A stretch of DNA of 64,000 bases from Nakamurella panacisegetis (GTDB lineage: Bacteria > Actinomycetota > Actinomycetes > Mycobacteriales > Nakamurellaceae). This document shows, in pieces, positions 1,685 to 60,499 of the stretch; positions within the stretch are counted from its first letter, which is position 1; each line of letters opens with the position of its first letter. The notes beneath the pieces were generated by a model, which was given only the letters and a program-made list of their open reading frames with translations, was not told the DNA's origin and ran no database searches. The DNA lies in the NCBI RefSeq assembly GCF_900104535.1, contig NZ_LT629710.1, forward strand, positions 3,197,501 through 3,261,500, written 5' to 3'. The translations under genes were made by a program, and so were the position numbers.

Positions 1685-4609
1685 ATGACGAACCCAGGCG
1701 ACGGCGACCGGCCGGCCCGTAGAAGCGAACGGCGCGGCGGCGATGGCCGTGATGGTGGTCAAGGCGGCTCCCGCAACAGCGGTGGCCCTCAGGGTGACCG
1801 CCGGTCCGGCACTGACCGTCCCTTTGTGTCTCGTGACAGGCCCTTCGCTGATCGGCCGTCATCCGACCGCGCTGCCCCGCGGGCTGATCGGCCCGCTTAC
1901 GGGCGAGCCGCAGACGCTCCCCGCGGAGAGCGGCCGTCGTACGACCGCGGCGCTCCTCCGCGTGGCGACCGTCCCGCTTACGGCCAGGCTCGTGATGGCC
2001 AGTCCCGCGGCAGCGGTCAGGGCTCGCGACCGTTCGAGCGCCGGCCCCCTCAGGACGACCGCGGCTTCGGCGACCGTCCGGCCCGGTCTGGCGACCGTCC
2101 GTATCAGGAGCGTCCGGCCCGCTCCGGCGATCGACCGTTCCAGGGCCGACCGCCCCGCAACGACGACCGCCCGTATCGACCGGCCTCGGATCGTCCCGGC
2201 ACCGATCGATCCGGCTCCGACCGGCCGAGCTACGGCCGGCCGCCCCGGGACGATCGTGCACCGCGCGCCGACCAGGCCCAGCGCGACGAACGTCCGCGCT
2301 CGGACCGGCCCAGCTACGGCCGTCCTCCGGCCGATCGCGGCGGGTTCGATCGTGCCCCGCGCCGAGACACGGACCGCCCGTACAACGACCGAGGTCAAGG
2401 TGACCGCCCGGCGTACGGGCGCCCCGCCCAGTCCGATCGTGGTGGCCGCCCCTCCGGCTTCGAGAGCCAAGGACGCGCGCCGCGCGACGGCGACCGCCCG
2501 TACGGTGACCGGCCGTCGTTCGGGGGCCGTCCCGAACGCGGGGGCGAGCGTCCGGCCGACGATCGCGCACCGCGTCGCGACAGCGGCTCGTCGTTCGATC
2601 GGCGACCGCCGCGGTCCGACGACCGGGGGCCGTCGGATCGTGCGCCGCGTGCCGAAGGGCAGCGACCTTGGTCCGAGCGTCCGCCGCGTGAGAGCGACCG
2701 TCCGTCCTTCGGTCGTGGGCGAGATGACCGGCCGCCTGCGGTGGGGGATCGACGTCCGCCCCGCGACGGCGATCGTCCGGCCTACGGCCGACCGACCCGC
2801 GACGCGGATCGACCCACCTTCGGGCGTCCGCCGCGTGAGGACCGTCCGCCGCACCGCTACGACCGGGATGAACCGTTCTCCGGGGAAAGCTCCCGGCCGG
2901 CACCGAAGCGCACCGACTTCGGGAGCGACCTGAGCCGCGGCTTCGGAGCCGACACCAGAGGGCGTGATGAGCGCCCGGCTCGCGACGCGCGCCCGGCTCG
3001 TGATGAGCGCCCGGCTCGCGACGCGCGCCCGGCTCGTGATGATCGTCCGGCTCGTGACGAGCGTCCGGCTCGCGACGCGCGCCCGGTGCGCGACGATCGT
3101 GCGCCCAGGAGCGATCGCCCGGTCCGTGAGGATCGGCCGTCCCGTCCGTGGCAGGACCGCAGTGCAGCGCCCGATTCCCGTGGGCCGGCCCGCGCGTACG
3201 GAGATCGACCGGAACGAGGATCGGCACCGGAACGGGCGAACCGACCCGATCGTGGTGAGCGCCCGGCATGGCGGGACAAGCCGGCCGCGGACCGTCGTCC
3301 GGCCGGTGAACGACCGTCGAGCGCCTGGGCTGACCGTGAGGCCCCGAGGTTCGAACGACGAGAGCCCGACCGGGGCTCGCGTGTCCGCGAGGATGAGATC
3401 GGCGAGCGCTGGCCGGAGATCCCCGAGTGGGCCGATCCGCGCGAGCTGGACGCCGAGGTCCGTCGGGACCTGCGGGGTCTGAGCAAGGAAGGTAGCGAGT
3501 TCGTCGGCGCCCACCTGTTCATGGCCGGCATGCTGGCCGAGGAGGACCCGGCCCTGGCCTGGCGTCACGCCCGGGCAGCTCGTTCGAAGGGTGGCCGGAT
3601 CGCCGTCGTACGGGAGACCGTCGGGCTGGTGGCCTACCACGCAGGCGAGTGGGCCGAGGCCATCGCGGAGTTGCGCGCGGCCCGGCGGATGAGTGGCGGG
3701 CCGGGGCAGTTGCCGGTCATCGCGGACTGCGAGCGCGCACTCGGACATCCGGAGAAGGCGATTGAACTGTCCCGCTCGGCCGAGGCGGCCGATTTGGATC
3801 CGGCGTCGGCGGCCGAGTTGCGCATCGTCGTCGCGGGAGCCCGCGCCGACCTCGGACAGCTCGATGCGGCGATTGCCTCGCTGGAGACCGCCGTGAACTC
3901 GGACAAGGTCGAGCCGTTCAGCGCTCGGCTGTTCTACGCCTACGCCGATCTGCTGCTGCAGGCCGGTCGCCGCGACGAAGCGATCAACTACTTCATGCGG
4001 GCGGCCGAGATCGATGTGGACGAGGAGACCGACGCCGGTGACCGACTGACCGAACTCGCCGGGGGCGACGTCGTCACCGACGAGGACCTCAGTGACGAGG
4101 AGGCCCTCGACGGCGAGCTCGATGCCGATCTGATCGATCCGGCCGATCAGGGTCAGTCCGCTGAATCGGGCGACGACAGCAGCGGCGACGCGACCAGTGG
4201 GTCAGTGTCCGACGTCGACGAAGGCACGCAGACCAGCGTTGCCGGAGCCGGTGCTTCCGGGATCGGCGTCCGTCACATGGAGGGCTCGGAAACTGCCGGG
4301 ACCGACGCGGCCGGCTTCGAGGCCGCCGCCGACGAGGCCGCCGCCGATGAGACCGATGGCGACGAGGACGGCGACGTGTCCGACGTCGACGGCGCGGGAG
4401 CCCCGGACTACAGCGACGTCGACTTCGACGCCGAGGACCCGGATGCGCAGGAGATCGTCGACCAGGCGTCGTCTGCGGTCCAGGTCGATGACGAGCAGCC
4501 CAACGACGCCCTCGACGAGAGCATTGAGCGGGAGAAGCTGCCGGAGCGTCCGGCGTCCCGTCCGTCGGGACTGGGCTCCCTGTTCAGCCACGACGAGGGG
4601 GGCCGGTGA
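1685..4609 (+). CDS. TPR protein with very long disordered R/D/P/G-rich N-terminus (Rv1691-like)
   Basis: The 974-residue product has three parts. Residues 1 to about 560 are low-complexity repeats of Arg, Asp, Pro and Gly (variants of RPSYGRPPRDDR and ARDERPARDARP). Residues about 565-790 form a helical TPR-like domain (WPEIPEWADP..., then AWRHARAARSKGGRIAV, GEWAEAIAELRAARR, GRRDEAINYFMRAAEID). Residues 790-974 are strongly acidic. Position at the head of the tlyA-recN cluster matches Rv1691 of M. tuberculosis, which is a plain TPR protein, so the long charged extension is the unusual part. No enzymatic motif is visible. It may scaffold RNA or ribosome-associated partners, but that is inference. 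The stop overlaps the next start. Confidence 0.85.
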   Translation: MTNPGDGDRPARRSERRGGDGRDGGQGGSRNSGGPQGDRRSGTDRPFVSRDRPFADRPSSDRAAPRADRPAYGRAADAPRGERPSYDRGAPPRGDRPAYGQARDGQSRGSGQGSRPFERRPPQDDRGFGDRPARSGDRPYQERPARSGDRPFQGRPPRNDDRPYRPASDRPGTDRSGSDRPSYGRPPRDDRAPRADQAQRDERPRSDRPSYGRPPADRGGFDRAPRRDTDRPYNDRGQGDRPAYGRPAQSDRGGRPSGFESQGRAPRDGDRPYGDRPSFGGRPERGGERPADDRAPRRDSGSSFDRRPPRSDDRGPSDRAPRAEGQRPWSERPPRESDRPSFGRGRDDRPPAVGDRRPPRDGDRPAYGRPTRDADRPTFGRPPREDRPPHRYDRDEPFSGESSRPAPKRTDFGSDLSRGFGADTRGRDERPARDARPARDERPARDARPARDDRPARDERPARDARPVRDDRAPRSDRPVREDRPSRPWQDRSAAPDSRGPARAYGDRPERGSAPERANRPDRGERPAWRDKPAADRRPAGERPSSAWADREAPRFERREPDRGSRVREDEIGERWPEIPEWADPRELDAEVRRDLRGLSKEGSEFVGAHLFMAGMLAEEDPALAWRHARAARSKGGRIAVVRETVGLVAYHAGEWAEAIAELRAARRMSGGPGQLPVIADCERALGHPEKAIELSRSAEAADLDPASAAELRIVVAGARADLGQLDAAIASLETAVNSDKVEPFSARLFYAYADLLLQAGRRDEAINYFMRAAEIDVDEETDAGDRLTELAGGDVVTDEDLSDEEALDGELDADLIDPADQGQSAESGDDSSGDATSGSVSDVDEGTQTSVAGAGASGIGVRHMEGSETAGTDAAGFEAAADEAAADETDGDEDGDVSDVDGAGAPDYSDVDFDAEDPDAQEIVDQASSAVQVDDEQPNDALDESIEREKLPERPASRPSGLGSLFSHDEGGR
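2966..3085 (+). repeat. 36-bp in-frame tandem repeats encoding DERPARDARPAR
   Basis: Near-identical 36-base units (gatgagcgcccggctcgcga and following) encode a 12-residue DERPARDARPAR-type peptide, with Asp-Glu/Asp-Asp exchanges between copies. They lie in the disordered part of the TPR gene and are likely to vary in number between strains by slippage or recombination. Confidence 0.8.
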
Positions 4610-23979: not shown

Positions 23980-24054
<75 letters not shown>

Positions 24055-24142: not shown

Positions 24143-24233
24143 GGCCGAGTTGTGCCAGATTGGGCCCAATGTGGCCGAGCTAGTCCCAATCCAGTCCCAA
24201 TCGAGCCCCAACCCAACCCCGCACAACTCGGCC
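24143..24233. promoter_or_regulatory. attP left arm: inverted and direct repeats, candidate integrase arm sites
   Basis: A perfect 13-base inverted repeat (ggccgagttgtgc at 24143 and gcacaactcggcc at 24221) encloses a 12-base palindrome attgggcccaat at 24159 and two direct copies of agtcccaatc at about 24182 and 24193. A close match to the latter pair occurs beside attR at 60366-60382. This is the position expected for integrase arm-type and bending-factor sites. The assignment is inferred. Confidence 0.55.
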
Positions 24234-24237
24234 AAAC

Positions 24238-24375
24238 TCAAAACAAGGTCGGGAGCTCGACGGCGAACAGGTCGAGTTGCTCCTCGGCCGGGGCCGGCGG
24301 GGCTGGAACGGGCCCGAATAGAGGCGGCGTCGTCCCCCCATCCCGCGGGATCCACTCGGCCGAGGGCTCGGTCAT
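24238..24375 (-). CDS. 45-residue protein with beta-clamp-binding motif
   Basis: The ATG overlaps the methyltransferase stop (ATGA), indicating coupled translation. The product is acidic and proline-rich, and its residues 33-37, QLDLF, exactly match the canonical bacterial sliding-clamp binding pentapeptide (QL[S/D]LF), followed by a second hydrophobic patch LPTLF at the C-terminus. A tiny clamp-binding protein could recruit something to, or block, the host replication clamp. Too short for most gene finders, but the overlap and motif support it. Confidence 0.7.
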
Positions 24376-25301
24376 GCGACGACGGGGGCGACGACTACAG
24401 AGGCGACGGCCTCGGCGAGCCGGGGCGGGACGGCGTTCGCGATCTGTAGGAACTGGGCGGTTCGGGTGCCCTGCCACGGGTAGTCGGCGGGGAACGATTG
24501 GAGCTGACCGGCCTCGGCCGGGGTGAGCTGGCGGCCCTTGCCCGCGGGGTCGGTGACGGTCCAGCTCCGGGCCTTCTCGGTCACCGTGAACGAGGGCAGC
24601 GCGTTGTCCCGGAGGTCGCGGGCCCGGTAGGTGAGCCCGTCGTCGCGGTCGTTCCGGCGCGCGAACCCGTGCGAGCCCTGACCGATGACGGTCGCGGCGC
24701 CGAGGCGGCCCGACGTCGGCGAGGGGAGCTTCACGTCGAGCGCCACGCGGGAGGCGACGAGCACGGCCCGGCGGCGGTCCTGGGGTACGCCGTAGTCGGC
24801 GGCGTTGAGGATCCCGACGTCGACGGACCAGCCCATCGCGAGCAGCTCCTCGGCGTACCACTCCCAAACGGGGAGGACGCTCGGCACCTGCTCCAAGATC
24901 AGCCACTCGGGATCGGCGCCGACGAGTAGGCGCATCGGCTCGGCGACCAGAAGCGACTTCAAGTCGTCCACGGTGAGGAAGTAGTCGAGGCGGCGGTCCT
25001 CGCCCGCGGCGGCCGACTTGATCAGGTCGCGGATCGCGTCGAGGTCGCCCCGGCCGAGCTGCAACCCGGCGGCACTGAATCCCTGGCACGGCGGCGACGC
25101 GATCAGGCCCTCGGGCGAGCGGATGCTCTCCGGCCGTACCGAGTAGACATCGCCCCGGCGGCGATCGTGACCGGCCGCGGTAGCGGTCGAGCACGCGAGC
25201 TGGTCGAGCTCGACGCCGAGCACGTCGACGCGGCCGAGGTTGCGCAGGCCTTCATCCCATCCGCCCGGCCCGGCGAACAGGTCAACGATCACGCGGCTCA
25301 C
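24372..25301 (-). CDS. Orphan C5-cytosine DNA methyltransferase
   Basis: The 309-residue enzyme has motif [10 protein letters not shown] (7-15), motif IV with catalytic Cys72 in SPPCQGFS, motif VI as LEQVP (137-141, in place of the usual ENV), motif VIII QDRRR (174-178) and motif X QIANAVPP near 290. It transfers methyl from SAM to cytosine C5. The motif VI change places Gln after Glu; the essential Glu is kept. The target-recognition region (about 185-270) is short. No restriction endonuclease is adjacent, so it is probably an anti-restriction or regulatory methylase. GTG start overlaps the previous stop. Confidence 0.92.
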
Positions 25302-25558
25302 TTCTCGCCCGTCGGGGCGAGGGACTGCTCGTCACTCGCTAGCGCGTCACTCGCTAGCGCGTCACTCGCTAGCGCGTCATTTTTGGGAGAGAGAGCCGCC
25401 ACGAGGCGGGCTTGCCGGTCGCGGTGAGCGGTCCAGCGGGCGAGGCGACGGGCGTCGCCCCCGATGTGCGAGAGGTCCTCGACAATGCGGCTCAGGTTCG
25501 CGAGCTCGGCGCGCTCCTCGGCGAGACGGGCGTCGAGCTCGCGGTCGGCGGCGGTCAC
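25298..25558 (-). CDS. Coiled-coil protein with C-terminal DALAS repeats
   Basis: The GTG start overlaps the upstream stop (GTGA). Of 86 residues, 1-55 form charged amphipathic helices ([19 protein letters not shown] and [20 protein letters not shown]), and residues 61-75 are three exact repeats of DALAS. The repeats are encoded by three perfect 15-base copies that resemble the operator palindrome of this cassette, so the tail may be a by-product of DNA-level function. Function unknown. Confidence 0.72.
25335..25379 (-). repeat. Three 15-bp tandem repeats resembling the cassette operator
   Basis: Three exact copies on the minus strand read tgacgcgctagcgag, in frame inside the preceding gene and 35-80 bases before the methyltransferase start. 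Each copy plus the next three bases matches the 18-base palindrome tgacgcgctagcgcgtca at 15 positions. They could be operators or roadblocks controlling the methyltransferase. Confidence 0.75.
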
Positions 25559-25758
25559 TTGGCGAGCCCGGCGATCTGCATCGCCTGAATGGCCTTCATT
25601 CGAACCCACGCGGCAGCCTCGGCGGCGGCGGCGTCGAGCGAGTAGCCTCCGGCGTTCACGAGCCTTAGAGCCTGACGGCGCGCGTCCGCTTCCATCTTCG
25701 GCGTGATGAACTGCTCCCACGCGGGGCGAGGCGTTGACGCTTCGATCGTTTCGCTCAT
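25555..25758 (-). CDS. Small protein of unknown function (67 residues)
   Basis: An ATG preceded by gaggag gives a 67-residue protein with helical content ([47 protein letters not shown]). No family is recognised. It is the first gene after a palindrome-containing promoter, with a leader of about 30 bases, and heads the operon that includes the DALAS protein, methyltransferase and clamp-motif protein. Confidence 0.7.
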   Translation of the reverse strand: MSETIEASTPRPAWEQFITPKMEADARRQALRLVNAGGYSLDAAAAEAAAWVRMKAIQAMQIAGLAK

Positions 25759-25794
25759 GGCAGGGTCTCCTCGGTGCGGTGGGGGTTGGGTACA

Positions 25795-25823
25795 ACTATG
25801 ACGCGTTAGCGCGTCATTGTCAA
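25795..25823 (-). promoter_or_regulatory. Promoter with 18-bp palindrome between -35 and -10
   Basis: On the minus strand a consensus -35 ttgaca (25818-25823) and -10 catagt (25795-25800) are spaced by exactly 17 bases. The near-perfect palindrome at 25799-25816 (tgacgcgctaacgcgtca) fills the spacer. A repressor bound there would block RNA polymerase. It drives the 67-residue gene and the methyltransferase operon. Confidence 0.75.
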
Positions 25824-25824
25824 A

Positions 25825-26052
25825 TCAGAACCAGCCGATCGAGCGGCGCATATCGCCACGGGCGGCGGCCATCGCCTCGCGCTTGGTCCGCTCGTATCCG
25901 GTCATGCCTTCCCGCGGCATCCGGTCGGCGTCGAGCACGGCGTAATACCACTTCTGGTCGGTGCCGTACTCGGCGCTTGCGTCGGTCTTGCTGAGGACAA
26001 CCTCGGCCGGGAACGGGCGGGCGACAGGGAGCGTGATCGGTGACGTCGACAC
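25825..26052 (-). CDS. Small protein of unknown function (75 residues)
   Basis: The GTG start follows gaaagg at normal spacing. The product (ITLPVARPFPAEVVLSKTDASAEYGTDQKWYYAVLDADRMPREGMTGYERTKREAMAAARGDMRRSIG) looks like a small alpha/beta protein with a C-terminal KREAMAAARGDM helix. No family recognised. A strong hairpin separates it from the gene upstream. Confidence 0.65.
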   Translation of the reverse strand: MSTSPITLPVARPFPAEVVLSKTDASAEYGTDQKWYYAVLDADRMPREGMTGYERTKREAMAAARGDMRRSIGWF

Positions 26053-26078
26053 GGTGGAAACCTTTCGGGGGAGAGGGT

Positions 26079-26106
26079 GCGCGGCTCTCGGGATTGAGAG
26101 CCGCGC
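26079..26106 (-). terminator. Hairpin inside the attL cassette
   Basis: Perfect 11-base arms gcgcggctctc and gagagccgcgc enclose a six-base loop, just after the stop of the 157-residue gene. There is no T run, so it may be an attenuator or RNA-stability element. Confidence 0.6.
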
Positions 26107-26120
26107 GGGGCGGGCGAGGG

Positions 26121-26594
26121 CTAGGCGTAGAAACGGCGGCCGGTCGAGGCGTCGAACGTCACGCGACGCTCGTAACCGTCGGCGTCGAATACGGCCATGA
26201 CGCCCATTCGCATGAGGGCGGCATCGGTCTGTGCGGCGTAATAGGCGCCACTCTCAGGGGTCACGAACTCCTCGCCCGCGGCGTTGGTGATCGACCACGT
26301 ACGGGCCTCGGCCTCGGCGGCGGCGGTGAACAGCTCCACGAAGTGCCGCACGTCCTCGCCACCCCAAGAGCGGGAGAGCTCGGCGCGGAACGCGGCGGGG
26401 TTGGTCGGCCAGATGAGCGCCGAGAGCGCGTCGACGGTCGCCGAGATGTGGTCGAACGGCGCGCCCTTGCCTGCGGCGATCGCGAGGGACTCCGCGCCGG
26501 CTGCCTTTATGTACGCGGGGTAAAGGCTGTTGAGTACGTCGACGGCTTCGGTCTGCGTGGCGGTGAGCGGGGCGGCGGTTGCGGTGGTGGTCAT
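26121..26594 (-). CDS. Protein of unknown function (157 residues), probably leaderless
   Basis: The ATG lies seven bases after a -10 element (acaatg on plus, 26602-26607) with no room for a ribosome-binding site. The product is mostly helical in its first 110 residues (EAVDVLNSLYPAYIKAAGAESLAIAAGKG, HISATVDALSALIWPT, DVRHFVELFTAAAEAEA) and ends in a small beta-rich part (MAVFDADGYERRVTFDASTGRRFYA). No family recognised. Divergent from the HTH gene and sharing its operator region, so it may be the key effector of this cassette. Confidence 0.75.
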   Translation of the reverse strand: MTTTATAAPLTATQTEAVDVLNSLYPAYIKAAGAESLAIAAGKGAPFDHISATVDALSALIWPTNPAAFRAELSRSWGGEDVRHFVELFTAAAEAEARTWSITNAAGEEFVTPESGAYYAAQTDAALMRMGVMAVFDADGYERRVTFDASTGRRFYA

Positions 26595-26601
26595 GCCGAG
26601 A

Positions 26602-26630
26602 ACAATGACGCGCTAGAGCGTCATTGTCAA
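26602..26630 (-). promoter_or_regulatory. Leaderless promoter with operator palindrome
   Basis: On the minus strand, ttgaca (26625-26630) and cattgt (26602-26607) are 17 bases apart and the palindrome tgacgctctagcgcgtca at 26606-26623 fills the spacer. The -10 ends seven bases before the ATG of the 157-residue gene, so the transcript should start at or next to that ATG. Confidence 0.75.
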
Positions 26631-26648
26631 GTGGGAGACGTTCGACGG

Positions 26649-26671
26649 TTGACGCGCTAGTGCGTTACTGT
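26649..26671 (+). promoter_or_regulatory. Divergent leaderless promoter with third operator copy
   Basis: The palindrome variant tgacgcgctagtgcgtta (26650-26667) leads into a -10 tactgt at 26666-26671, again seven bases before an ATG. The -35 hexamer is poor here, suggesting a weaker promoter. It would express the small HTH gene and permit autoregulation. Confidence 0.65.
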
Positions 26672-26678
26672 GCCGACC

Positions 26679-26906
26679 ATGGCAGGAAAGAAGCGAGACA
26701 CGCTCACGACAGCGGAGGCGGCGGCGCTCGCGGGGATCACCCCGTCGGGCCTCAGATCGACCCGCTCGCGCGTCCTCCGGCTCACGGGCGTCGAGCTACA
26801 GGCGGACCGGTCAACGTGGCCTGACGGTAGGACTCCGCTCTACGACGGGCCCAAGTTCCGAGCGTGGCTCGCGTCGCGGCCCGGTAGTGGGAACTTTCGG
26901 AGGTAG
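26679..26906 (+). CDS. Small HTH DNA-binding protein, candidate regulator of the attL cassette
   Basis: The 75-residue basic protein begins MAGKKRDTLTTAEAAALAGITPSGLRSTRSRVLR, a helix-turn-helix of the excisionase/MerR type (TTAEAAALAGITPSGLRSTRSR), followed by a wing-like segment (GRTPLYDGPKFRAWLAS). The ATG seven bases after a -10 was preferred to a GTG three codons earlier. Placed between divergent promoters carrying the palindrome, it is the obvious candidate for the protein that binds it. That link is inference. Confidence 0.75.
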   Translation: MAGKKRDTLTTAEAAALAGITPSGLRSTRSRVLRLTGVELQADRSTWPDGRTPLYDGPKFRAWLASRPGSGNFRR

Positions 26907-26969: not shown

Positions 26970-27359
26970 ATGACAGAGCCGCTGCCCTCCCCGTACGCCA
27001 CCAGCCAGCCGAGCGCGGCGACCTATCCCGCGCCCCCTCAGTACGCCGAACAGCCGGTCGCGCCCTACCCGGCGGCATACCCGCCCGTCGTCGCGCCCGG
27101 CCCGAGTGTCGTCTACGTCCAGGCGCCCGCGCCGGTGGCCGGTCCCTACGTCCCTCAGAAGTCGGTCGGGGTCGCTTACGTGCTCTGGTTTTTCCTCGGT
27201 GCGCTCGGCGTCCATCAGTTCTACCTCGGTAAGACGGGCCGCGGGATCCTCTACCTGTTCACGCTCGGCGGTTTCCTGATCGGGCTCGCGATCGACCTGT
27301 TCACCATGGCGGCACAGGTTCGCCAGGTCAACGCGCAACGCGCCGTCGGCATCCGGTAG
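26970..27359 (+). CDS. TM2-domain membrane protein, prophage moron
   Basis: The 129-residue protein has a Pro/Tyr/Ala-rich cytosolic N-terminus (to about residue 65), then a TM2 domain of two membrane helices with the conserved loop: SVGVAYVLWFFLGALGVHQFYLGKTGRGILYLFTLGGFLIGLAIDLFTM. It is preceded by aaagga. It lies on the strand opposite to the phage structural genes and ends in a terminator, so it is probably expressed in the lysogen and modifies the host envelope. Mechanism unknown. Confidence 0.85.
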   Translation: MTEPLPSPYATSQPSAATYPAPPQYAEQPVAPYPAAYPPVVAPGPSVVYVQAPAPVAGPYVPQKSVGVAYVLWFFLGALGVHQFYLGKTGRGILYLFTLGGFLIGLAIDLFTMAAQVRQVNAQRAVGIR

Positions 27360-52582: not shown

Positions 52583-52728
52583 CGGCGGGCCCCGGCCGAG
52601 ATGTGCTCGGCGAGCACCCAAGCCTTGACGGTGGTGTCGTAGGCGATCGGCCGGCCGATTCCGTATGGGGTGCGGCAGCACGCGCAACGGCCGGGGGTGC
52701 TGGCCGGGGCGGGCGCGTAGAGGCTCAC
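52579..52728 (-). CDS. Tiny zinc-finger-like protein (49 residues)
   Basis: The GTG overlaps the previous stop and its TGA overlaps the next ATG. The product SLYAPAPASTPGRCACCRTPYGIGRPIAYDTTVKAWVLAEHISAGARR has a Cys-X-Cys-Cys core. It is missed by most gene finders; the double overlap is the main evidence. Confidence 0.6.
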   Translation of the reverse strand: MSLYAPAPASTPGRCACCRTPYGIGRPIAYDTTVKAWVLAEHISAGARR

Positions 52729-53609
52729 GCGGGGTCACCCGAGCGGCATCCGTAGGGCGAGCAACCGTCGGCGCTGCCTTCCTCTGCCTCAATGTCCTTG
52801 ATCAGTTCGAGCGCGTCGAGCTGGCGGTCTTTCCACTCGCCCCGCGTCACGCGGTCGATTGGGGCGATGGAGAGCGGGAGGCGCGAGCGGTGCAAGAACT
52901 GCTCGCCCCGCATCGGGACGCCGCGGCGGCCACCCTTGCGGATCTCGACGTCGAACGCCACGGCGTCGGCCCATTCTTCGGGGCGGTTGTCGCGGAGCTC
53001 GCGCCATGCTGCGTTTCCGTGGAACGGGCACCCGATGCACGCTGATTTCTCGGTGGTCCAGCCCTTGCCGTTGAGGTATCGCTCGCAGTCCTTGCGGGAC
53101 CACCCGAGGTCGAGCAACGGGTACTCGGTCGCGAGGTATCGCACGGAGTCATGGGCGCGGTTCGCCCTGTGGATCTCGTCGGTTGAGAATCCGACCCATT
53201 GCGTCGCGGTCCTGCCTTTGGGGACGCGGAGGAACCGCGGGGCGGGGGCGCCTAGGAGCTCGCGCACCTTGCGCCGGATCGGTACGAGCTTGTATTCGCT
53301 GGTGCATTGACGGCGGCCCATCCCGTCGGAGCCATCGGGGTTCTGGACGAAATACGGCGCGGAGACATAGCGACGATCCGGGTCGATCGAATCGCTCCGG
53401 AGGTTGCCGCTCGACACTCGGTAGACGGGCACTCCCGCGAGGGCGGCCTCGCGCTCGATTCGCTCCAAGTGCCGGTAGACGGCGGCCGGTTCCCATCCGG
53501 TGTCGGCGAATATGGCGCCGTCGGGCTTGGGGAGTGTGCCGTCGAGTGCGAGCAGAAATAGGGTTGTGGACTGGACTCCCGCGCCGAGCGACAGGAGGGT
53601 GAGGTTCAC
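52725..53609 (-). CDS. PAPS reductase-like / adenine nucleotide alpha-hydrolase protein
   Basis: The 294-residue protein has the PP-loop opening LTLLSLGAGVQSTTLFLLAL (an SGG-type loop), IFADTGWEPAAVYRHLERIE, GRRQCTSEYKLVPIRRKVRELLG, and the Cys pair SACIGCPFHGNAAW, plus RKDCERYL. The Cys set could hold an iron-sulfur cluster as in the DNA-phosphorothioation enzyme DndC and PAPS reductases. Related proteins are frequent in actinophages with unknown role. GTG overlaps the upstream stop. Confidence 0.88.
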   Translation of the reverse strand: MNLTLLSLGAGVQSTTLFLLALDGTLPKPDGAIFADTGWEPAAVYRHLERIEREAALAGVPVYRVSSGNLRSDSIDPDRRYVSAPYFVQNPDGSDGMGRRQCTSEYKLVPIRRKVRELLGAPAPRFLRVPKGRTATQWVGFSTDEIHRANRAHDSVRYLATEYPLLDLGWSRKDCERYLNGKGWTTEKSACIGCPFHGNAAWRELRDNRPEEWADAVAFDVEIRKGGRRGVPMRGEQFLHRSRLPLSIAPIDRVTRGEWKDRQLDALELIKDIEAEEGSADGCSPYGCRSGDPA

Positions 53610-53863
53610 TCGGCGACCGCGGCGGCGTACCGGTCGCCGTCGGCGGGTGTGCCGTCCCATGCGCTCTCGGGGACCGAGGCGACGAGCTCGGAGCGGCGGG
53701 GGAGCTGGTCGAGCCCGAGGATTTCGAGCAGTTCGTCGGCGACGGCGGCGCCGGTCACATAGTCGGAGCCGGCGAGGTTCCGGCGGGCTTGGGCGCGTTC
53801 GGCCTCGGTCCCTTTCCAGTCGCGGGAGGGGCGGATCGAGCCGAGGGTGATTGCGTTGTCCAT
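53606..53863 (-). CDS. Phage early protein of unknown function (85 residues)
   Basis: The product DNAITLGSIRPSRDWKGTEAERAQARRNLAGSDYVTGAAVADELLEILGLDQLPRRSELVASVPESAWDGTPADGDRYAAAVAE is acidic and helical. It begins a few bases after the initiator stop and its own stop overlaps the PAPS reductase-like gene. Not recognised. Confidence 0.65.
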   Translation of the reverse strand: MDNAITLGSIRPSRDWKGTEAERAQARRNLAGSDYVTGAAVADELLEILGLDQLPRRSELVASVPESAWDGTPADGDRYAAAVAE

Positions 53864-53866
53864 GGG

Positions 53867-54709
53867 TCAACGTCCGATCGAGAGTGGTTGGCGGTTGGAG
53901 TGCTGGCGCTCTTCGGCTTCGAGCCGCTGAGAGACGCTCAGGGCGTTTGTGAGGCGCTGGTCGGCCGTCGACCCTCGGGAGGGCGCCCCGGCCGACTGGC
54001 GGGGCAGGCAGGCGGGGTCATTCCACGACTCAGCGCGGAGCCAGGTCGCGGGGTACGGCGTGAATTGCGGGTCGCGGTTCGGGTCGGCCGCGAATCGGGC
54101 AGCCCCGGCGATGATCTGGTCGGCGTCGCCCTTGCGGGTTACTGACGTCCAGGCTTTGAGCGCGTCGGGGCGCTTGGCCTTCCGGGGATACGTCTCGTAG
54201 AACTCGGCGAATCGGTCGGGCTTCGGGGCGATCTCGGACGCGTCAGCGGCCAAGGTAGTTAGAGCCTGTTCCTCTGTTCCCCTGTTCCTCTGTTCCCCTG
54301 TTACAGACGCAACATTTGTCCCCAACCCTCGCGAGGGTGTCGCGAGGGTCTCGCGAATGACGGCGTTTTCGCTGGTCGGCAGGGGGTAGCGCGGCTTATT
54401 CGGCCGGTCGATCTTCTGGTGCTCCCAGCCGGTCACGTACAGGAACGGGCGCCCGTCGGCGGTGACGTATCGGACGATCAAACCGGTCGAGAAAAGGTGT
54501 TGCAACCCTCGCGAGACTGTCGCGAGGGTCTCGCGAGGGTCGTCCTCCAATGGGAACAAGTCGGCGCAAATGAGCTTCTCGACGTCGCGGCCGACCCCAT
54601 TGTCATCGACGTATTGCCACAGCCCGACGAACAGGAGACGGGTCGGCCAGTCGTGCGCGGCTATGTCCTCACTCGACCAAAACTCGGGCTTGATGCTGCG
54701 GATTCGCAC
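53867..54709 (-). CDS. Replication initiator-like protein (DnaD/winged-helix type)
   Basis: The GTG with gaggagaa upstream gives 280 residues beginning RIRSIKPEFWSSEDIAAHDWPTRLLFVGLWQYVDDNGVGRDVEKLICADLFPLEDDPRETLATVSRGLQHLFSTGLIVRY, a winged helix of phage replication proteins. The C-terminal part (FYETYPRKAKRPDALKAWTSVTR...TPYPATWLRAESWND) is typical of phage DnaD-like initiators. The gene contains clustered repeats that could be the phage origin. Confidence 0.85.
   Translation of the reverse strand: MRIRSIKPEFWSSEDIAAHDWPTRLLFVGLWQYVDDNGVGRDVEKLICADLFPLEDDPRETLATVSRGLQHLFSTGLIVRYVTADGRPFLYVTGWEHQKIDRPNKPRYPLPTSENAVIRETLATPSRGLGTNVASVTGEQRNRGTEEQALTTLAADASEIAPKPDRFAEFYETYPRKAKRPDALKAWTSVTRKGDADQIIAGAARFAADPNRDPQFTPYPATWLRAESWNDPACLPRQSAGAPSRGSTADQRLTNALSVSQRLEAEERQHSNRQPLSIGR
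54265..54303 (-). repeat. 16-bp tandem repeat in the replication gene
   Basis: Two exact copies of cctgttcctctgttcc and a partial third lie in frame, encoding the EQRNRGTEEQ segment. On the minus strand this is purine-rich and less GC-rich than its surroundings, as in unwinding elements. Confidence 0.7.
54324..54536 (-). other. Candidate phage replication origin (tcgcga-rich repeats)
   Basis: A 33-base block beginning aaccctcgcgag occurs at 54324-54356 and again at 54504-54536, each with three tcgcga cores; both encode an RETLATxSRGL peptide. Repeats within an initiator gene recall the lambda origin inside gene O. The reading as an origin is inferred. Confidence 0.5.
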
Positions 54710-57182: not shown

Positions 57183-58081
57183 GAGGCACCTATCAGTGTT
57201 CGGTCGAGCGGACGTTTGGACTTCAACAGGAAGGGGCGGCCCTGGCCCTTGCGGGACCGGGATGCGATGGTCTGGCGCGTTTTCTTCTCGCCGGTGACGG
57301 CGTATTTCGCGGCGCCCATGGCGTCGAACACCTGGTTACGGGCGAGCCCGTGGCGGTCGGTGGCGGCTTCGAGCGCATCGAGTGAGTCGACGTACTCGAT
57401 CGCGAGGCGCGGGTCGAGCTGGTGGTCGGTTCCGTCGATATCGGGGGTGACGCTGCGGATGCTCTCGTATGTGGCGATCGACGCGTCGAGCTCGGGCAGG
57501 CGACCCGCTTCGAGAATGTCGAGGAACTCCTCGCCCTTGCGCTGCATCGCGCTACCGATCTTCGGGTCGTAGCGGAGCACGTACTCGCCGAACTCCAATC
57601 GCTTGCCGAGCAACGGAAACGAGATCCAGTCGAGTTGCAGGACGTGACAGGTCCACATGCCTTGCGCGGCGTAGTAGATCGGGATATGGCCGGATCCGGG
57701 CTTGCCCCATCCCACGTCATCGCCCGCGTCGGTCTTTGCCTCGATCGGCACGATCTCGCCGGTCTCCCGGTTCACAGCCAGGGCGTCAGGGTTGACGGCG
57801 GCCCAATCGAGCCCGTCGCGGTAGAACGTGCGGCCCGAGTCGGGGTGACGGTCCCACTCCGGGTGCTGCCCGAATACCCAATTGACGACGGACGGTTCGA
57901 GGTAGTGCCCGCGGCCCTGTTCGGTGGTCTGCGGCGGTGCGGTTCGGTTGCCGACCATGAGGTCGCCGAGCGAGCGGGCGGACTCCCACGGTGAGATGCC
58001 CAACACCGCGGCCATTTTCGAGGCGGTGAGGTAGCGGAGCCACTCAGCCGAGCCCGGTTCGAGTGCGGGCCCTGCCTTCAC
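57179..58081 (-). CDS. YqaJ-family viral recombinase exonuclease
   Basis: The 300-residue protein begins ...WLRYLTASKMAAVLGISPWESARSLGDLMVGNR and has the PD-(D/E)XK core (DALAVNRETGEIVPIEAKTD), then YYAAQGMWTCHV with its conserved Gln. It resects 5' ends and hands ssDNA to RecT. The GTG overlaps the upstream HTH gene stop. Confidence 0.93.
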   Translation of the reverse strand: MKAGPALEPGSAEWLRYLTASKMAAVLGISPWESARSLGDLMVGNRTAPPQTTEQGRGHYLEPSVVNWVFGQHPEWDRHPDSGRTFYRDGLDWAAVNPDALAVNRETGEIVPIEAKTDAGDDVGWGKPGSGHIPIYYAAQGMWTCHVLQLDWISFPLLGKRLEFGEYVLRYDPKIGSAMQRKGEEFLDILEAGRLPELDASIATYESIRSVTPDIDGTDHQLDPRLAIEYVDSLDALEAATDRHGLARNQVFDAMGAAKYAVTGEKKTRQTIASRSRKGQGRPFLLKSKRPLDRTLIGAS

Positions 58082-58347
58082 TGGTAGACGATTCCGGCGA
58101 CGACGAGCGGGTCCGTCGAGAGCTTGGGCAGGTCGACGCGTCGGAGGGTCAATGCTGCGTTGAGCTCGGCGCGGTCAACGCGGGTGCATTTCGGGCCGAA
58201 CGTGTAGGCGACGAGCGTGCCGTCGGCGATCCGGCGGTACACAGTCCGAGCGGATACTCCGGCCCACACTGCGGCGGCCTCGACGGTCACGAGCTCGCGG
58301 GGTGTAGCGGTCGGGTCTGCGGGGGTCGGCGTTTGGGTGTTGGTCAT
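58078..58347 (-). CDS. HTH protein, excisionase/MerR-type
   Basis: The 89-residue protein has ELVTVEAAAVWAGVSARTVYRRIADGTLVAYTFGPKCTRVDRAELNAAL, a clear excisionase-type winged HTH. A good aggag ribosome site precedes it. It may be a directionality factor or early regulator. Confidence 0.82.
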   Translation of the reverse strand: MTNTQTPTPADPTATPRELVTVEAAAVWAGVSARTVYRRIADGTLVAYTFGPKCTRVDRAELNAALTLRRVDLPKLSTDPLVVAGIVYQ

Positions 58348-58389: not shown

Positions 58390-58608
58390 CTATCCGAGGC
58401 GGGCGAGGTACGTCCGGATCGCGGCCGGGGCGTACATGCGACGGCGGCCGAACTTGATCGACGGAATCTCTCCTCGGCGGGCCCTGTCGCCGACATACCA
58501 TTCGCTCATGTTGAGGCGCTCGGCGACCTCAGTAACAGTTAAGTAACGTTCGGCGAGCGGGTCAACTCCTTGTGCCGCAACCTTTGTCGATCGGGCAGTG
58601 CTGGTCAT
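58390..58608 (-). CDS. First early gene: Xis/Cro-like HTH protein
   Basis: The 72-residue basic protein has YLTVTEVAERLNMSEWYVGDRARRGEIPSIKFGRRRMYAPAAIRTYLARL, an excisionase-type HTH. Being the first leftward gene after the divergent immunity region, opposite the repressor, it holds the place of cro and of xis in related phages. Confidence 0.8.
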   Translation of the reverse strand: MTSTARSTKVAAQGVDPLAERYLTVTEVAERLNMSEWYVGDRARRGEIPSIKFGRRRMYAPAAIRTYLARLG

Positions 58609-58647: not shown

Positions 58648-58696
58648 AAGTTATGCGGAACTAGGCGTGCATGCAACTCCGGGCATTCACGCCTAG
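58648..58696 (-). promoter_or_regulatory. Early leftward promoter with inverted operator arms
   Basis: On the minus strand, ttgcat (58671-58676) and taactt (58648-58653) are 17 bases apart. The arms ctaggcgtgcatg (58661-58673) and cattcacgcctag (58684-58696) form an inverted repeat (12 of 13) that overlaps the -35 and spacer. Repressor binding here would silence the early operon. Confidence 0.7.
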
Positions 58697-58833
58697 CTCA
58701 CATGTTCGGGAGTTACTACCCGATTACTCTTCGTATGCGCGGCAAGCGGTTGGGCCGATTAAGCAACACGCGCTCGGACGGGTGAATCATCGTGGGTTGT
58801 CGCGAACGCAAGACAGGGCCGGTGTGCAAGCGT

Positions 58834-60416: not shown

Positions 60417-60451
60417 TCAGGGGCGATACGCGCTCGGCGCGGGTCAAACAC

Positions 60452-60499
60452 CTTGACTGGGGGTCAAGGGGTCGCAGGTTCAAATCCTGTCAGCCCGAC
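60452..60499 (+). repeat. attR: attR core (48-bp direct repeat, copy 2)
   Basis: This is identical to 24007-24054 and is a 3' tRNA-Pro remnant without the 5' part, so it is not a working tRNA gene. It lies 35 bases after the integrase stop and marks the end of the prophage. Confidence 0.96.

Follow-up and report, generated by a model that had tools for sequence, protein, structure and literature searches.

The window analysed here is a stretch of 64,000 nucleotides (64 kb) of the Nakamurella panacisegetis genome that holds a prophage with terminase, portal, tail and integrase genes. Close to the left prophage boundary lies a cassette of small genes, arranged in three units which share one regulatory sequence, present as the putative operators A, B and C (Table 1). 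The unit behind site A contains the genes for a 67-residue and an 86-residue protein and a C5-cytosine DNA methyltransferase, which is reached from site A via the two small genes through GTGA overlaps; the GTG of the methyltransferase gene overlaps the stop codon of the 86-residue gene. The methyltransferase matched Pfam DNA_methylase (2.1e-36), NCBIfam dcm (above the cut-off) and phrog_116 (3.6e-55). Behind site B follow the genes for the 157-residue and the 75-residue protein, and the third unit consists of the gene for the helix-turn-helix (HTH) protein at 26679, possibly together with the TM2 gene as judged from its position. The small cassette proteins gave no match in Pfam, PHROGs, NCBIfam or PADLOC. 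Relatives of the 157-residue protein were found neither in viral contigs (11 pattern stretches, 0 confirmed) nor in 50,697 phage records or 17 genomes of the family, and it was dropped as a comparative anchor for lack of relatives and of a usable single-sequence model (mean pLDDT 52). Two further features of the prophage are an 11-bp imperfect tandem repeat (AGTCCCAATCC, 3.1 copies) at 24182-24215, about 130 bases inside attL, which perhaps represents integrase arm sites, and a phosphoadenosine phosphosulfate reductase-like gene at 52725-53870 that adjoins the gene of a replication initiation protein, with RecE-/RecT-like genes further right.

Table 1. Features of the cassette and the prophage boundaries in the window.
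Feature	Position	Strand	Remarks
tRNA-Pro (ggg)	23980..24054	+	left prophage boundary; ARAGORN
C5-cytosine DNA methyltransferase	24372..25301	-	last gene of site-A unit; no visible restriction partner
86-residue protein, no family match	25298..25558	-	DALAS x3 stretch near C-terminus; GTGA overlap with 67-residue gene
Tandem array, 15 bp x 3.3 copies, 100%	25330..25379	.	operator-like 18-mer per unit, 2 mismatches
67-residue protein, no family match	25555..25758	-	first gene behind site A; leader with GAGGAG
Putative operator A	25799..25816	minus-strand promoter	-35 TTGACA 25823-25818, -10 CATAGT 25800-25795
75-residue protein, no family match	25825..26052	-	second gene behind site B
157-residue protein	26121..26594	-	ATG 7 bases after site-B -10; predicted leaderless
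Putative operator B	26606..26623	minus-strand promoter	-35 TTGACA 26630-26625, -10 CATTGT 26607-26602
Putative operator C	26650..26667	plus-strand promoter	-10 TACTGT 26666-26671, clear -35 absent; distance to operator B 44 bases
75-residue protein, predicted winged helix-turn-helix; putative autorepressor	26679..26906	+	ATG 7 bases after TACTGT; predicted leaderless
TM2-domain membrane protein	26970..27359	+	Pfam TM2 3.3e-18
Second tRNA-Pro call	60429-60499		right prophage side; ARAGORN

A motif scan of the window located the palindromes A, B and C exactly where a sequence-only reading of this DNA had reported them, with one (25799), one (26606) and two (26650) mismatches to TGACGCGCTAGCGCGTCA. 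Altogether, the window contains six matches to this consensus with at most three mismatches, compared to 0.05 expected, and none of 100 shuffles reached six. The remaining three, with two mismatches each, are the units of the 15-bp tandem array. Across the genome, matches to the relaxed pattern TGACGCGNTAGNGCGTCA with at most one mismatch are limited to the three cassette sites; those with two mismatches comprise the three units of the array and another three positions beyond the cassette. By this pattern, no site outside the cassette is as good as A, B and C. A TGACGCGCTAGTCCGTAA place at C1:1523028 was set aside, as there is no HTH relative within the surrounding 15 kb.

At A and B, a perfect TTGACA is followed after 17 bases by a -10 element of the type xAxxxT, as previously proposed, but the palindrome does not fill the spacer exactly as had been claimed: the 18-mer begins at the second base of the spacer, one base past TTGACA, and extends into the -10 element by two bases. 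Promoter A (TTGACA-17-CATAGT, 25823-25795) was found by a promoter scan (10/12; shuffle mean 0.1), whereas the -10 element of promoter B (TTGACA-17-CATTGT) is too weak for a generic scan and was read directly. At site C, TACTGT is located at the same phase as the -10 elements of A and B and the -35 region scores 0/6; because of this missing -35 element, the promoter of the HTH gene may be weak or in need of help. The proposal that the two divergent genes start seven bases after their -10 elements is borne out for the 157-residue and the HTH gene, and with such a short distance both should be leaderless. As a general description of the cassette, leaderless genes apply to only two of the three promoters, since behind A the ATG of the 67-residue gene is preceded by a leader that contains GAGGAG. 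In the set of 14 sites with at most three mismatches in the window and in the loci L016, L037 and L038 of the relatives described below, seven combine a -35 element of at least 4/6 with an xAxxxT -10 element at one fixed phase. The background for this architecture is 131 of 28,948 positions already bearing the A (0.45% per orientation), or about 0.9% if it is considered that the better of the two orientations was taken for each site. Searching 394 genomes for the promoter-plus-operator pattern with at most two mismatches yielded matches in eight; the two exact sites both belong to the Nakamurella genome and the seven other genomes have one chance-like place with two mismatches each. Among viral contigs, the pattern was found in the contig G017 only.

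As the inverted repeats are perfect or nearly so, they could also be RNA stem-loops acting as terminators or attenuators instead of operators, and a terminator-like stem is indeed called over the tandem array. We regard this as hardly credible. At A and B, at both sites of G017 and at the sites s1-s3 of L038 the repeat is positioned upstream of the predicted start and would therefore not be transcribed from that promoter, and the two terminator calls do not exceed those in shuffles (mean 1.5).

The tandem array is located inside the coding end of the 86-residue gene, 31-78 bases ahead of the methyltransferase start, and it is perfect and codes for DALAS repeats. The start coordinate of the sequence-only reading touches this array, which is absent from its text. 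The array is more operator-like than chance allows, yet it has no promoter of its own, and two sites in L038 that also lack an own promoter overlap stop codons in a similar manner. A function as methyltransferase promoter was dropped, as the strand of the methyltransferase gene shows no -35/-10 pair at the fixed phase. Possibly, the array serves as a roadblock or as a direct-repeat binding site.

The structure model of the 26679 protein is a winged HTH (pLDDT 82), and a fold comparison places this predicted structure nearest to BldC and excisionases. At the sequence level the match to Pfam MerR stays below the cut-off (E 0.097, 13 bits compared to 28.2), HTH_17 gave no match for the protein and 20.4 against a cut-off of 27 for the relative from Austwickia, and PDB contained no related sequence at E of at most 0.5, the best hits being unrelated. 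The fold would be in line with a prophage excisionase (directionality factor), in which case the palindromes would belong to another regulator; in addition, one of the seven members of the HTH family matches PHROG excisionase profiles, the HTH gene is located near attL, and the relatives in L038 lie about 2 kb before the integrase. We nevertheless consider an excisionase unlikely, because neither tRNA-Pro has an operator-like site in its vicinity, relatives are also encoded on a plasmid and next to an SSB gene, where the stretch examined shows no adjacent integrase, and two HTH_17 proteins, the usual excisionase type, already adjoin the integrase, one of them below the Pfam cut-off. These two small proteins are encoded on the minus strand next to the repressor and integrase genes, at 58081-58347 (below the cut-off) and 58393-58608 (above it), and the latter is likely of the excisionase type.

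The weak match to MerR brings up a second possibility, namely a MerR-like activator that twists the spacer DNA. Operators in the spacer are also found in MerR promoters, and at site C TTCGAC precedes TACTGT by 19 bases, a MerR-like distance. Such an activator has little chance of being the right answer: the spacers at A, B, G017 and L038 comprise 17 bases, not 19-20, in combination with TTGACA or TAGACA and need no correction, and, apart from the winged helix, the 26679 protein contains neither a sensor nor a dimer domain.

The clade of the 26679 protein is rare and the sample correspondingly small: seven proteins were found in six elements, five of them besides the window, and all contain the motif WPDxRTP. 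Protein searches identified members in a second locus of the Nakamurella genome (45%), in Austwickia, on a Mycobacterium intracellulare plasmid and in the contig L038 (two copies), and G017 (IMGVR 2751185590_000001) was found via the palindrome alone and was then shown to encode an HTH relative (E 1.3e-18). Relatives are present in 2 of 397 genomes of the order and in 2 of 394 of the class, each time the Nakamurella genome and one weak match. Phage records contained none for three queries at E of at most 0.01, and further scans of viral contigs yielded only L021 and L038. L020 (22 residues), L024 (from Streptomyces, a different type of gene with 46% over 49 residues) and the distant L040, which has neither WPDxRTP nor a TA-centred palindrome, were left out of the clade. 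G722 encodes a more distant relative (E 8e-8 to the second-locus protein) and lacks a TA-centred palindrome.

A site with at most three mismatches is located within 1.6 kb of the HTH gene in four of the six elements (six sites in the window, one each in G017 and the plasmid, five in L038), compared to none of 30 control loci of the broader HTH family phrog_597, which were taken from the best of its matches in 125 of 296 genomes. The control loci also reach sites at four (1/30) and five mismatches (7/30) and CGCTAGCG (2/30), and therefore a site with five mismatches or the bare octamer is no evidence. As the window was the query and G017 was found by its palindrome, the independent cases of palindrome plus HTH gene are two of the four other elements, the plasmid and L038, against 0/30 in the control. 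Shuffling 3 kb around the HTH gene did not reach the observed best match in any of 500 trials for the window, G017 and L038; the best match was reached in 2/500 for the plasmid, in 20% for the second locus (P 0.2) and in 73% for Austwickia. Among the contigs found by the palindrome TGACGCNCTAGNGCGTCA, four of five are without an HTH relative in the contig DNA examined.

The loci of the relatives differ in their gene content. The prophage G017 has exactly two sites with at most three mismatches, which repeat the two variants seen at A and B with unchanged orientation and each behind TTGACA, and its 3.1-Mb genome contains no further site at this threshold. Its site A heads the operon with the HTH gene and its site B a unit with LPD29 (LPD, large polyvalent protein associated domain) and DUF3560 proteins. 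A stretch of 8,207 bases of G017 is identical to one in the MAG Actinomycetales Actino_02, and the first gene behind G017 site A (L016, 4840-4960) shifts frame after about 13 residues, which is either an assembly error or real. In the phage contig L038 (IMGVR 3300046718_000201) five sites are clustered in 1.3 kb and the rest of its 32 kb is free of them. Three small genes of this contig start six bases after a CATGAT -10 element and look leaderless too. The plasmid locus (L037) was taken from one of two M. intracellulare plasmid records, and its HTH relative (3902-4309) is extended at the C-terminus by about 60 residues, a part that has no Pfam match. In the second locus of the Nakamurella genome there is no site with at most four mismatches, but core-sharing palindromes are found in the 17-base spacers of two divergent promoters, one of the SSB gene and one of a small ORF, and a third one just ahead of the HTH ATG; because of the phrog_597 control, we lowered this locus from having a site to being similar in core and promoter layout only. 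It is part of an island (L017, 5143-14818) that also encodes a Mu/rve-type transposase and in which an ATPase-like stretch occurs twice, as near-identical copies among the ORFs. The operator pairs are 34 bases apart in this locus, 44 in the window and 44 and 45 in L038, thus differing by about one helical turn, which would fit binding on the same face of the helix, although four pairs are too few for a test. The Austwickia relative (53% identity in the scan, 55-57% in alignments) has no palindrome near its HTH gene, and the Austwickia genome contains one place with three mismatches outside the locus compared to five in the reversed-pattern control.

The sequence-only reading had suggested an autonomous switch with the HTH protein at 26679 as its regulator, and the comparative evidence is in favour of it, with the plasmid and L038 found by the protein and G017 by the palindrome; speaking against it are Austwickia without a palindrome, the second locus, which is at chance level relative to the window consensus, and the four palindrome-bearing contigs in which the DNA examined encodes no HTH relative. 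The palindrome might instead be read by another host or prophage protein such as the HTH_3 protein at 58792, which its profile match clearly marks as a phage repressor, and the HTH gene could be a co-inherited passenger. This appears improbable to us, as within the genomes and records scanned the sites occur only in elements that carry the HTH gene, in four such elements with different neighbours. Moreover, the inverted repeat by the 58792 gene differs in sequence and the palindrome has no match there. In the immunity region, CTAGGCGTG and CACGCCTAG form an inverted repeat at 58663-58698 that likewise bears CTAG.

We therefore favour the interpretation that the cassette is a small prophage regulon run by the 26679 protein as an autorepressor acting on the palindrome, with a probability of about two in three. 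It builds on the sites as such and their phase relative to the promoter, on the lack of comparable sites in the rest of the genome and on the observation that they recur with HTH relatives. The winged-helix protein, probably as a dimer, would bind to the 18-bp palindrome and thereby shut out RNA polymerase, because the palindrome covers the spacer between -35 and -10 and the first bases of the -10 element. Promoters A and B, with TTGACA and a 17-base spacer, would be strong by themselves without the protein, and for this reason we assume a repressor rather than an activator. Binding to site C in its own promoter would limit the level of the protein. In the lysogen all three units (67-86-methyltransferase; 157-75; HTH, perhaps with TM2) would be held low, and upon entry of the DNA into a repressor-free cell, or after loss of the repressor, they would fire at once and fall as the repressor builds up. 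The cargo, i.e. the methyltransferase in the cassette and SSB, LPD29 and DUF3560 in the related loci, would be compatible with such a role during entry.

Several known systems share parts of this organization. The acr-aca loci (Aca1 to Aca10) are described as combining a small HTH protein of mobile elements with consensus-like promoters, small untyped neighbour proteins and an inverted repeat inside the core promoter, in several Aca families with a second one outside (PMC9410906, PMC9410881). Their promoters are reported to fire on entry and to fall as the repressor accumulates (PMC9410906). The cassette likewise has a small HTH protein in a mobile element and an inverted repeat in the predicted promoter of the HTH gene itself (site C, without -35), but it contains no known anti-CRISPR, its putative regulator is a predicted winged-helix protein, and further sites are found at divergent and at separate units, of which several are predicted to be leaderless. 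In the top-ranked Aca literature, the terms 'MerR' and 'winged helix' do not occur. No Cas1 was found in the host genome, and therefore an anti-CRISPR role would concern other hosts. The pLS20-family clade II establishment regulon (p576) is comparable in that one repressor is described to act on its own and on several strong promoters of entry genes, which fire in a naive cell (PMC8708921); this repressor is a Bacillus-borne ribbon-helix-helix protein, unlike that of the cassette. A further parallel is CvkR of type V-K CRISPR-associated transposons, reported as a MerR-type repressor of a mobile element that is made from a leaderless mRNA, diverges from a target which is leaderless as well and has a palindromic site in a promoter spacer (PMC9938897), corresponding to the predicted leaderless starts in the cassette. 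According to the same report, CvkR differs in its motif (AnnACATnATGTnnT), a spacer of 21 at Pcas12k, its larger size with an own dimer fold and its origin from cyanobacteria (PMC9938897). For BldC, filament-forming binding to direct repeats or to AT-rich DNA is described, and RdfS is reported to have no clear consensus (PMC11963761), whereas the cassette sites are a strict and recurring palindrome; BldC being the closest structural relative, its preference for direct repeats counts against the proposed binding. Compared to the BldC/Xis group including Pukovnik Xis, the cassette sites are inverted repeats; a direct-repeat arrangement is found in the array at 25330-25379. In the leading regions of conjugative plasmids, orphan methyltransferases and SSB are presented as prominent (PMC11541004), and the same types are found in the cargo; the promoters there are mostly described as single-stranded (PMC11541004), in contrast to the predicted double-strand operator in a phage. 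Autorepressors with an inverted repeat in phage early promoters as well as a MerR-type repressor with leaderless partners (CvkR, PMC9938897) are already known. The present case differs in the clade to which the putative regulator belongs, in the CGCTAGCG operator and in the occurrence of this operator in phage, prophage and plasmid alike. Titles and abstract openings of the open-licence literature gave no description of this regulator or palindrome, which does not imply its absence from print.

The pairing of palindrome and protein in other mobile elements may mark genes that are used on cell entry. To our knowledge, only few anti-defence genes are known in actinobacterial hosts. For archaeal viruses, it has been described that anti-defence genes were found via a shared regulatory sequence (PMC11065993). 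As a bolder and clearly tentative idea, which we think will rather not hold, the proteins with WPDxRTP might represent a new Aca-like winged-helix clade marking entry or anti-defence regulons in actinobacterial phages, plasmids and islands. If so, the core CGCTAGCG in a 17-base spacer would flag anti-defence genes, with the 157-, 86-, 75- and 67-residue proteins as candidates. If the regulon exists as proposed, the protein motif and the DNA motif would jointly point to entry-induced genes in actinobacteria, a winged-helix type would be added to the repressors that time entry genes, and the cassette would provide a simple, naturally occurring group of leaderless genes that share one operator.
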